The notes under the pieces were generated by a model that saw only the letters and a program-made list of their open reading frames with translations, was not told the origin of the DNA and did not search any database. The position numbers were made by a program, and so were the translations under genes. A stretch of 35,581 nt of DNA from Pseudanabaena cinerea FACHB-1277 (GTDB taxonomy: Bacteria > Cyanobacteriota > Cyanobacteriia > Pseudanabaenales > Pseudanabaenaceae), in contig NZ_JACJPY010000043.1 in assembly GCF_014696345.1 (NCBI RefSeq), positions 1 to 35,581 of the forward strand, in the 5' to 3' direction. This document shows positions 27,810 to 32,219 of this stretch, in pieces (the first letter of the stretch is position 1; each line of letters starts with the position of its first letter).

Positions 27810-28688
27810 CTAGGGAAGAGTCCTCGCGAGACAACTGACAATGCGAAAACCGACATTGCTGCCGCGACCGCCCGGATGAAAGTAGAAGCGATAGGCAGAG
27901 CGACAATTCCTAGGATCATAGAGCCAAGAACCGCCGCGCAACAGCCGATTTTCCTTGCTTTCATCACCAGATACCCAAGGAATATTGCCACTTTTTTTTA
28001 GTTCTTCAGGTTTTTCAGAATAGCTATCATGCCAAGTATCTAAACACCATTCCAAAACATTTCCATGCATATCAAATAGCCCAAAGGCATTGGCAGTTTT
28101 GAAGTATGTTGTGGCTGTAGTTTCTTGGCGATAGATGCCTTTGCTCCCGCGCCAGGAACCCGACCACTTAAAATCTTCATCGTCAGTCCCGCGATAATTG
28201 GCTAGATCTGTAGAGATCGTTTCGCCGAAATGAAAGGGGGTTGTTGTGCCTGCGCGACAGGCATATTCCCATTCGGCTTCGGTGGGTAGGCGATATTCAC
28301 GTCCTGTTTTGACTGAGAGCCGATCGCAAAATTCGACAGCTTCAAACCAAGAGACTTGCTCGACGGGGCGATTTTCATCACCTTGGAAACGTGAGGGTTC
28401 AGGGTTTAGCTTGATGTTGATTTGGGGTAATTGGGTGGCGACGGCTCGCCACTGGGCTTGGGTAACTGGAAACATACCCATAAAGAAACTCTGAAGGGTT
28501 ACGCTATGTTGAGGGAATTCAGAGGTGCGGCGATCTGGCTCAGTTTCGGGAGAACCCATGATAAAGCTGCCTTGGGGAATAGCAACCATTTTGAGGATTG
28601 TGCCATTGCCCAAGTCTTCAGGATAAAATTGCGTTTTTCCTTGTCTGAAGGAAATATTGATGCGGTTTTTAATTTGAGCAACAGTCAT
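27810..28688 (-). CDS. Stand-alone FGE-like (SUMF1/EgtB-fold) protein with a DGR-type variable end
   Basis: A 292-aa formylglycine-generating-enzyme-like (C-type-lectin-fold) protein. Landmarks are [12 protein letters not shown], then [23 protein letters not shown], the classic [29 protein letters not shown] and L-L-R-G-G-S-W at ~249-255. True FGEs have two active-site Cys near the end; here only C262 is present and the first is Tyr/Asp, so it is probably a binding domain and not an FGE. Residues 256-278 form the variable segment described separately. It follows the DUF559 gene on the same strand, 222 bases away, with no strong ribosome-binding site. It is homologous to the C-terminal 250 residues of the larger protein ending at 29628. 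Confidence 0.9.
   Translation of the reverse strand: [292 protein letters not shown]
27855..27923 (-). other. Putative DGR variable region 1 (VR1)
   Basis: A 69-base segment (codons 256-278 of the FGE-like gene) that differs from VR2 at 15 bases in 11 codons, all at codon positions 1 or 2; every varied codon ends in C or T in both copies. At 12 of the 15 positions one of the copies has A. Upstream (21 bases) and downstream (45 bases, to the stop) the two copies are identical. This is what adenine-specific retro-mutagenesis of AAC/AAT template codons produces. Confidence 0.8.
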
Positions 28689-28775
28689 TTCAGAGAGGAA
28701 GATGGATGAAGGGATTTTTTAAATTTTATCTTGTTTCTGGAGAAATGTATCAATTGTTGCGAGAGAAGTATATCA

Positions 28776-29574: not shown

Positions 29575-29627
29575 GATCGCCTGACGGCGAGGGGGAGGGT
29601 AAAGAAAAGAGGACAGAGGGCAAAGGG
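29575..29627 (-). repeat. 3' flank of the larger FGE-like gene, copy of 27740-27809
   Basis: This segment begins with the same GATCGCCTGACGGCG and keeps the GGGGGAGGGTAAAGAAAA block as in the other copy. It directly follows the stop of the gene ending at 29628. Confidence 0.75.
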
Positions 29628-32219
29628 CTAGGGAAGAGTCCTCGCGAGACAACTGACAATGCGAAAACCGACATCGTAGCTGCGAACGCCCGGATGATTG
29701 GAGCTGCGATAGGCAGAGCGACAAAGCCTAGGATTAAAGACCCAAGAACCGCCGCGCAACAGCCGCCTTTCCTCTTTTTCATTGCCAGATACCCAAGGAA
29801 TATTGCCACTTTTTTTTAGTTCTTCGGGCTTTTCAGAATAACTGCCATGCCAAGTATCTAAACACCATTCCCAAACATTTCCATGCATATCGTAGAGTCC
29901 AAAGGCATTGGCAGGGAAATTTCCTACAGGACTAGTCTGAGAAGTTTGGCGATCGCCTCCCTTTGGTCCATTGTTATAGGCGTAGTCCCAATCGTAGTTT
30001 GCAAGTTTTGCAGAGATGGTTTCGCCAAAATAAAATGGGGTTGTTGTGCCTGCGCGACAGGCATATTCCCACTCGGCTTCGGTGGGTAGGCGATATTCAC
30101 GTCCTGTTTTGGCTGAGAGGCGATCGCAAAATTCGACTGCCTCAAACCAAGAGACTTGCTCAACGGGGAGATCGTCGTCACCTTTAAACTCTGAGGGTTC
30201 AGGGGTTAGCTCGATTTTGATTTGGGGTAATTGGGTGGCGACGGCTCGCCACTGGGCTTGGGTGATGGGATATTTGCTTATGAAGAAATCGCTCACTGTC
30301 ACTTCATGCTGTGGTGTTTCATCTTTATTAAATTCTGGTTCATCTTTAGGTGCGCCCATGAGAAATGTCCCACCTATGATTTCCACCATTTCCACCCTGA
30401 CATCACCTAGCTCCTCTATACGCTGCCAACCATAGCCAGCCGACTTGGTGATTTGCCAATTTTTGCTATTCTTCTTATCTCGCGCAATTTTTGCAGTCTT
30501 AAAGTCAAAACGCGCCAATTCCTCGATTTCGATTTGGGCAATCTGGAAAGTGTGAGGTTGCATTTTGGGCAAACCTTTTGGATCTGGCGGCGGCGGATTT
30601 TGAATAAATTGCCTGAGACGCTCTGCCATCGCTCGATGTTCACTTCCCAATTGAGACAATGTATCGAGTCCAATTTCCGCAAACTTCTCCACCTGTTGAC
30701 GTTCATCGGGTTTTAATTCGTGCAGTAGTGCAATTAGGGCCTGAAAGCTTTTTACCCCCTTACCCAGACGCTCTGCAATATAGGCGGAAACGGTATCTAA
30801 TACGCGAATGGTTTTAGAGATTGGCACTGCGGCGATCAGGGCTTCCCGCACACCCTGCACAAAGCGGTATTGTGGGGGCTGCGGAGGTGATTGCGGTGGT
30901 AATGGAATAGTCTCTAAAATTCCGCCCATGAAGACTTCAGCGATATGTACCTGTTGCGATTCTGGCAAGAGCGTTTTTTGGATGAGATGCACAATCGGGA
31001 TGCTGACGGGGACAGCCGCCATGTATGCGGCAAGTCTCTGGGCAGTAATTGAGGCAGTACGACAAAAATTTTGGACTCGCTCTTGGATTTGGGCTTCTGA
31101 GGTAATGGCAGTTAGGGATAATTCGTGAGCAGACTCGGATGGGCTTGATAATTTTGCTAAGTTGATTTCAATGCCAACGATGCTGGCGTTGAGGTTGCCT
31201 GTGGTAACTTTTGCCCAACGTCTGAACGGTTCGGGTTCGATGCTGATTGCGGGTAAGATGATGGTTGAGGTGGTGGAGTTTTGGTAGTCTAGATCTGCAA
31301 GTATCGGATAAATGGGCTTTGCCTCTTCACTCAATTTTGCTTGAGTTGCTCCCGCATATTTGGCAGACATTCGCATCAAGCGCCCATCCCCTAGGCTCGT
31401 TCTCGACCAGAGGCGTTCGGGAAATAGCTGCACTAGCACTAGCGGCGAGGCTTTGCCCCAATCTTGGAGGATGTCATAAATGGCGGGTTGCTGCCATAGG
31501 TCAGAGGTACAGTCGCTCAGTACCCAGATAATCTGCCTACCGTGAGGAACTTTGAGTGCCTTGGGATGCTGAGATCGCTTGTCTGTTTTGGCTTGCCAGT
31601 TGGGAGAGATGTTGAGTTCGGGGGTGAGGAGCCAAGTGCGGATTTGCCGAAATGCGCCCTGCTGCTCGACTAGTTCGATTAATTCGGCGATCGTTTCTGT
31701 CCAGATTTTAAGGGAAGGGCTATCTTCGATCGCGATCGTCAGGTCAAACCAGCGTTCTGACGCAGGAGTCATTACTGGCGACCAGATATTTTGTTCGGCG
31801 GTTTGAATGGCTGTGGCTTCTTCGTCTAAAACTGTTTGGGTTCGCGATGGCATTTTTTGCATTAATGGACGCAAGGCACGGGAAAGGGCTAATCGCGATC
31901 GCAGGGCATTTGCCGCAGGGATTTGTAAGGGTAAAGAATTGCTGTAGCTTTGTGGCGATTGGCTTTCAGGAGGGGGAGGTAAAACGATAGGTACTTTGGA
32001 ATTGGGATCTGGTGGCGGCGGCGCGATGATTTCATTACTGGTGCGAACATTGACCTCATCTGGATCTGGGGTTGTCGAAGCAATTGGCTTGGCGATTGGT
32101 GATGGGCTAATTTGACGGGCTAACCAGAAGATATCTGCTAAATTTTCGCCATCAAGATCCTGCCACTCTTTTTGGAGAAGCTTTGCAAATTGAGGAATTG
32201 AGCTAGAAGTATCAGTCAT
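29628..32219 (-). CDS. vWA-FGE fusion protein of the ternary conflict operon
   Basis: An 863-aa multidomain protein. Residues 1-35 are a short helical start, 40-100 a Pro-rich linker. A vWA-like domain lies at ~156-300, with an E165-x-S167-x-S169 variant of the MIDAS motif in [10 protein letters not shown] and a conserved W-V-L-S-D-C-T-S-D strand at 232-240. The helical region (~300-600) resembles the SAV_2336-type proteins that accompany MoxR ATPases. An FGE-like domain occupies ~608-863, with [19 protein letters not shown] and H-G-N-V-W-E-W-C. Only one of the two FGE catalytic cysteines remains (C833), so formylglycine formation is unlikely. The end carries putative DGR variable region VR2 (residues 827-849). 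It starts 15 bases after the MoxR stop, in one operon. I infer that the C-terminal lectin-like domain recognises ligand and the vWA/MoxR part transmits the signal. Confidence 0.88.
   Translation of the reverse strand: [863 protein letters not shown]
29673..29741 (-). other. Putative DGR variable region 2 (VR2)
   Basis: Codons 827-849 of the vWA-FGE gene, aligned without gaps to VR1. Variable residues are V, F, N, L, S, S, N, V, S, Y, D against L, Y, D, N, F, Y, F, G, G, S, N in VR1. Intervening codons, such as those for C-R-S-A-Y-R and H-P-G, are identical in the two genes. The 45 bases downstream, including a CTCGCGAG palindrome, are identical too and would be the place for an initiation-of-mutagenic-homing sequence. 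Confidence 0.8.

Follow-up and report, generated by a model that had tools for sequence, protein, structure and literature searches.

Organisation of the locus

The window analysed here, by which the whole stretch is meant, comprises 35,581 nucleotides of Pseudanabaena cinerea FACHB-1277 (assembly GCF_014696345.1, contig NZ_JACJPY010000043.1, positions 1 to 35,581). Its subject is a pair of neighbouring genes, one short and one long, that encode formylglycine-generating enzyme (FGE) domains and carry at their 3' ends variable regions of the type made by diversity-generating retroelements (DGRs). They are part of a VMAP ternary conflict system (Trypco1, trypsin-VMAP, MoxR, vWA-FGE and FGE), and the DGR cassette that diversified them has probably been lost. 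The features are listed in Table 1.

The predicted fold of the short protein (mean predicted local distance difference test score, pLDDT, 80.7) matches PvdO (5hha) and a Treponema variable protein (2y3c). The long protein combines an SAV_2336 N-terminal region, with a vWA-like fold at residues ~114-343, and a C-terminal FGE domain (610-855). In both genes the variable region thus lies at the 3' end of a gene of FGE/C-type-lectin fold, as is typical of a DGR target.

Table 1. Coordinates of the features in the window, with strand and basis of assignment.
Feature	Position	Strand	Basis
Short FGE-sulfatase variable protein (C-type-lectin fold), 292 aa	27810..28688	-	Open reading frame; Pfam PF03781, 175 bits
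Long variable protein, 863 aa	29628..32219	-	NCBIfam NF041121, 397 bits; PF03781, 208 bits
DGR variable region, short gene (11 varied codons)	27855..27923	-	Codon-by-codon comparison
DGR variable region, long gene	29673..29741	-	Codon-by-codon comparison
46-base tract 3' of the variable region, identical in both copies	27809..27854; other copy 29627-29672	-	Alignment
Interval where G018, L070, L094 and L095 carry Avd and reverse transcriptase (G018, L094 and L095 a template too)	28689..29627	.	Comparison
DUF559 gene between the targets	28911..29297	-	PF04480, 98.8 bits
MITE-like element with strong internal stem-loop	29391..29554	.	17-nt terminal inverted repeats, 88% complementary
Second dispersed-repeat patch	28772..28908	.	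39-nt direct repeats and G/C-rich inverted stretch
MoxR-like AAA ATPase, 333 aa	32235..33236	-	PF07728 AAA_5 and PF00004 AAA above cut-off
Trypsin - VMAP-M1 - VMAP-C protein, 604 aa	33240..35054	-	PF13365, PF19963 and PF20028 above cut-off
Trypco1 (trypsin-co-occurring) adapter, 111 aa	35069..35404	-	PF19493, 87.5 bits

Variable regions of the two FGE genes

The two variable regions were compared codon by codon. Of the 23 codons 11 vary, through 15 base differences, eight of them at codon position 1, seven at position 2 and none at position 3, which reproduces what a first-pass annotation of this DNA had reported. Its statements that the third base of each varied codon is C or T in both copies, and that one copy has A at 12 of the 15 differing positions, were likewise borne out. 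As for the identical flanks that it described, the identity is real, with an upstream tract of 24 bases (27924-27947) instead of the 21 given, and a downstream one of 46 bases, 45 of which run through the stop; the alignment shows the first difference downstream of the latter at 27808. Were a cassette present, the homing site would be expected in the 46-base tract.

From codon 248 to the stop the two genes are identical apart from the varied codons, and the nearest upstream silent difference, the GGT/GGC pair already pointed out, is at codon 241. Outside this tract the FGE domains have diverged, with 94 of 226 aligned third positions differing and an amino-acid identity of 0.63 (codons ≤233). 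Finding no third-position difference in 45 codons has a probability of 4e-6 or 3e-11, depending on the flanking rate used and with sites treated as independent.

A non-coding template repeat was found in a genome of the same genus (G018), at C48:21224-21334 (L147:9225-9335, minus strand). All 15 window differences fall on adenines of this template, which has 26 A in 69 bases (P = 1.4e-8); this figure overlaps with that for the third positions, since most template adenines are the first or second base of an AAY codon. The restriction of substitutions to adenines is therefore seen through the template of a relative rather than through a template of the strain itself. At the non-A sites of the G018 template the two window copies agree with each other throughout, and both show the same nine mismatches to it, all at third positions. 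The differences confined to template adenines, together with these shared third-position mismatches, point to a single template as the most likely origin of both window regions, a template of the same lineage but with silent bases of its own. An order-wide search for a closer template (38 genomes, five of them with a match at E ≤ 1e-12, the strain's own included) gave none beyond its own genome that betters the one of G018. The annotation of the two genes as FGE-like, with DGR-type variable regions, is supported both by the Pfam family and by the position of the differences on template adenines.

Reverse transcriptases and templates in the genome

The reported absence of a reverse transcriptase (RT) from the window was confirmed: the best tblastn match has an E value of 0.097, and none of the three RVT_1 (PF00078) matches of the genome is on this contig. 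Neither RT nor Avd is recognisable in the window, the DGR RTs being found on other contigs only. There are two of them, in agreement with the expectation of a DGR RT elsewhere in the genome. Contig C137 carries a target, a first template, Avd (NF033474, 136 bits vs. a cut-off of 80), the RT and a second template; contig C122 carries a target, an Avd-like reading frame (judged by eye), the RT and a template. The whole-genome template search that the first-pass annotation had proposed thus yielded three A-rich template repeats outside the window, none of which matches the window pair. An RT of the DGR type and an A-rich template, whose joint absence from the genome and its relatives would have spoken against a DGR, were both found.

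The third RT (G000:C1:123138-123620, L003; 506 aa) has Drt4 as its best NCBIfam match, under the cut-off (193.6 vs. 450 bits). Nor did the DGR RT query hit it at E ≤ 1e-10, and it was set aside as the source.

DGR homing copies the non-A bases of the template into the target. In true template/variable pairs, no non-A mismatch was counted (0/78 for C137, 0/67 for C122 and 0/73 for each of three targets in G018). Against the three resident templates, the window pair mismatches at 19-26 of 67-78 non-A sites, so that these templates did not write the present window regions. C137 template 1, C137 template 2 and the C122 template were ruled out as trans donors on this non-adenine test, and the earlier suggestion that a DGR elsewhere in the genome diversifies both genes in trans is not supported by this result.

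The assembly is a draft of 179 contigs, with completeness given as 99.99. No matching template was found by a DNA search of it at E ≤ 1, by searches of it with the 27-base 3' flank and with a 27-base core (both at ≤ 3 mismatches), or by a protein search of it with the predicted template; a degenerate 84-base pattern, allowed ≤ 3 mismatches in 26 genomes of the genus including the strain's own, gave none either. No template identical to the window regions at non-adenine sites was therefore found in the draft assembly. An exact 25-base tract from the 3' side was found 0 times in viral contigs.

Other DGR-related sequences of this genome were also recorded. The second A-rich template of C137 (20614-20721, minus strand; L009 near 12719), downstream of the RT, matched none of the variable regions with which it was compared. 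Two FGE genes (C24:67161-67853 and C143:21943-22680) share a type of variable region ending in FRVVFASSS, and no template matching this pair was found in the genome; the C143 region resembles C137 template 1 (L031) in its 3' part and flank. On C158, near 23214 (L153:5218), a DGR-like variable region lies in a short frame of 82 aa between other genes and is perhaps the relic of a truncated FGE gene.

Position of the cassette in relatives

In G018, the gene order is EAD1-VMAP-C, MoxR, long FGE gene, Avd, RT, template, FGE and FGE. A scan of named genomes for relatives of the FGE domain covered the best 80 of at least 576, all of them from cyanobacteria. Twelve of these 80 loci have an RT match in the stretch examined and 11 match the N-terminus of the long gene, four of the latter having the RT as well (L070, L094, L095 and L106). 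In L070, L094 and L095, Avd and RT are located between the long and the short FGE gene; the template is also between them in two of these loci (L094 and L095), and that of L070 follows the short gene. The L106 locus has its cassette upstream of MoxR.

In the seven other loci (L084, L105, L112, L121, L126, L133 and L140) no RT was seen in the stretch examined, L133 being cut by a contig end inside the FGE domain. A short Avd fragment remains beside or between the FGE genes of L105 and L126, with two in-frame stops in the case of L105. For six of the seven, the genome has no RT match (E ≤ 1e-10) closer than ~30% identity; in the L133 genome, one of 63% identity lies elsewhere. Within the genus Pseudanabaena, the predicted-template query matches 24 of 25 genomes and the DGR RT query 11 of 25, the best match in G004 being a fragment.

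In the window, no remnant of an RT, Avd or template was seen in the corresponding interval (Table 1), which holds only repeats and the DUF559 gene. The element resembling a miniature inverted-repeat transposable element (MITE) has a DNA fold z of -5.2. At least 41 further matches in the genome overlap it (40 of 82 candidates scored), some of them being one place on both strands and many covering the inner stem-loop alone; three near-full-length ones (C1, C132 and C94) are among the matches listed. The second repeat patch has at least seven matches in the genome.

Possible time without a template

Silent divergence between paired variable regions was taken as an approximate clock. Of 16 comparisons of a template with a variable region, all from loci with an RT match, 14 have 0 non-A mismatches and the other two have one. 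Genome G009 carries the same ternary genes and three variable regions, with no RT match at E ≤ 1e-10; its pairs of variable regions show 1, 4 and 5 third-position differences, against 0 in the window pair. The six pairs of L084 show 0-2 such differences, and L112 and L126 one each. Five RT-less pairs (L101, L121, L130, L092 and L073), with 6-19 third-position differences, were not read as orphaned, since their template need not be common. Left out for unequal lengths were the template/variable comparisons of L071 and L148 and the variable-region pairs of L071, L105, L140 and L148; also left out were L088, where no region was found, and L150, L068, L098 and L107, with one region each. At all 120 constant sites the window copies are identical (95% upper bound on divergence 2.5%), which argues for a recent loss.

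The ternary system

The neighbouring genes encode a MoxR-like AAA ATPase and a VMAP protein with a peptidase (Trypsin_2) N-terminus, as in a ternary system. The vWA component was recognised at the level of fold alone and with modest scores: in the long protein (mean pLDDT 70), VIA-align to Rea1-MIDAS gave Z 9.1 and a root mean square deviation of 4.1 over 169 aligned residues, and residues ~114-343 also align to many vWA chains. Foldseek on the long protein gave a NorQD chain as its best row (E 0.008) and none at E ≤ 0.001, and no vWA Pfam match was obtained for it, NCBIfam assigning NF041121 (SAV_2336 N-terminal). A likeness of residues ~368-526 to CED-4/Apaf-1 (Z up to 8.9) is not claimed, because the region is helical and such Z values are common; it may reflect a common helical arrangement. 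Taken together, the neighbourhood is that of a VMAP ternary conflict system, and the two variable regions are its DGR-type variable regions.

The PADLOC models do not match either FGE protein; E values go no lower than 3e-6 for the MoxR protein and 6.6e-11 for the trypsin protein (LmuA and RT-Protease_XI, through the protease part), and the RTs of the genome match RT models. Three CHAT (caspase-like) genes were also observed on the same contig (4616-7771, 11660-14410 and 18184-21471, plus strand), with TPR matches, that of the second being under the cut-off.

According to Kaur et al. (2020; PMC7159879), ~80% of the cyanobacterial and gammaproteobacterial VMAP systems are associated with DGRs, and Dore et al. 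(2024; PMC10907252) proposed that the diversified lectin domain is an antigen sensor, from which MoxR relays to the VMAP effector. Adenine-specific hypermutation was described in cultured Nostoc punctiforme in a DGR adjoining MoxR and VWA genes (PMC12691664). A role of the ternary system in defence against invaders is a published proposal (PMC7159879, PMC10907252).

Interpretation and alternatives

The best reading of these results is that of a recently orphaned sensor pair, diversification having ended in this genome: the two genes would be paired diversified targets of a VMAP ternary system whose own DGR cassette was lost, with a probability of about 0.75. It builds on the signature, the gene neighbourhood, the Avd-RT-template cassette in cis in a relative, and the draft in which no matching template was found. 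A DGR RT would once have written both genes from a single template while mutating its adenines, randomising 11 codons and leaving all other bases identical. The cassette between the genes would then have been deleted or displaced at the place where repeats, one of them MITE-like, now lie, and these repeats may have caused its loss. The two receptors would henceforth be frozen in this genome and drift like ordinary genes. Going by the literature, their FGE domains would be antigen sensors signalling via MoxR to the trypsin-VMAP effector.

Several points weigh against this reading. A short, repeat-like template could be missing from a 179-contig draft despite the completeness value. Zero silent divergence is also expected of an active system; it is also seen in the RT-less stretch L074, for which the RT search was confined to the stretch, and in one of the six L084 pairs. 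The clock itself is rough, L067 and L148 having been counted as RT-bearing on a partial RT match. With 0 in the window pair but also in L074, it follows that the loss is recent or the system still alive somewhere. The MoxR protein and long-gene N-terminus of the relatives are only ~23-51% identical to those of the window, and the loss from exactly this interval rests on comparison with such relatives because no remnant remains. The same interval is also without a cassette in G009, so that a cassette at this place need not be the ancestral state in the genus.

It is conceivable, if doubtful, that the cassette is polymorphic in the population, other strains keeping it intact and diversifying in cis and the assembled genotype being a deletion variant, which is compatible with an orphaned pair in this one genome. 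Long reads revealed the same for DGR 3 and DGR 7 of Thiohalocapsa (PMC10907252), and the window offers a fresh tract with repeats, one MITE-like, at the place; however, the variable region has no copy in 25 other genomes of the genus (≤ 3 mismatches; one genome per species). Unlikely is a pair still diversified in trans, by the C137 or C122 RT acting on a matching template in an assembly gap. Such activity would fit the presence of two DGR RTs, that of C137 beside an Avd over the NCBIfam cut-off, the draft state of the assembly, the zero non-A divergence between the window copies and the targetless extra template of C137, from which templates and targets appear not always to be paired, but five kinds of assembly search yielded no matching template, and the window interval, which is contiguous, shows none.

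Overwriting of the window by the resident C137 or C122 templates despite imperfect homology is very improbable. The 75% DNA identity over 56 bases to C137 template 1 would pass a loose threshold for remote targets, for example the ≥ 50% given in PMC7517822, but homing would have written the non-A bases, and 19-26 of 67-78 do not match. Hardly credible, finally, is an origin without any DGR, by recent gene conversion of the 3' end and subsequent positive selection on surface codons: the 3' flanks are similar over ~58 more alignment columns, with indels, yet all 15 differences are on adenines of the relative's template, third positions are free of them, and most of the equivalent codons in other templates are AAY, which codes for Asn.

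Related systems and significance

The window resembles the DGR-associated cyanobacterial VMAP systems described in PMC7159879 and PMC10907252 (clade 5E), which comprise MoxR, vWA with variable FGE/C-type-lectin, trypsin-VMAP and Trypco1, and it shares with clade 5A of Dore et al. (PMC10907252) the combination of one long and one short target gene. Unlike those systems, the window locus is without an RT, Avd or template of its own, and the rest of the assembly yielded no matching template either. The closest parallel to this state is DGR 7 of Thiohalocapsa PB-PSB1, a trypsin-VMAP ternary locus in which, according to PMC10907252, no template in the genome matches the variable regions perfectly, the template is replaced by a MITE-like array and rarer intact variants occur in the population; MITE-like arrays also stand where DGR parts would be in its DGR 4/5. 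Thiohalocapsa, however, belongs to another phylum, and its DGR 4/5 match a template elsewhere (DGR 2).

In Anabaena/Nostoc PCC 7120, all3226 is likewise a C-type-lectin target with remnant template-variable homology and no RT nearby, and the authors suggest that the machinery is removed once a good variant has been selected (PMC7517822); unlike the window pair, which stands inside a ternary system and shares a template that was not found, it is a dispersed paralogue. Remote targets would be missed by the metagenome survey of Roux et al., as its authors note (PMC8144416). The literature searched for orphan variable regions and for Pseudanabaena with DGRs gave nothing direct. The variable protein 1 of Treponema denticola (TvpA, PDB 2y3c) is known from the literature to combine an FGE/C-type-lectin fold with a C-terminal DGR variable region. 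Its structure is the second-best PDB sequence match and the third fold match. It comes from a different host, and TvpA is not known to belong to a ternary system.

Given the precedents of Thiohalocapsa DGR 7 and PCC 7120 all3226, both the type of system and this kind of loss are already known; here the state is clean and apparently recent. Speculatively, the genome might hold a mixed repertoire of live and locked receptors, in which templates turn over and templateless targets stay as selected binding specificities, other targets being diversified by the cassettes that persist. What has been observed is the pairing pattern alone: the targets of C137 and C122 match a resident template perfectly, and for the window pair and the C24/C143 pair none was found. 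That repeat-linked loss of a cassette locks in a useful receptor pair is a notion to be held just as tentatively.

With the non-adenine mismatch test, true trans targets, which have 0 mismatches, can be told from look-alikes that would satisfy a loose identity threshold for remote targets, and counting the silent differences within a pair of variable regions may indicate roughly how long a locus has lacked its template. The window thus presents a clean, apparently recently orphaned pair of DGR targets in a cyanobacterium whose genome keeps two other DGR cassettes, so that lock-in vs. activity in trans can be tested in one strain.

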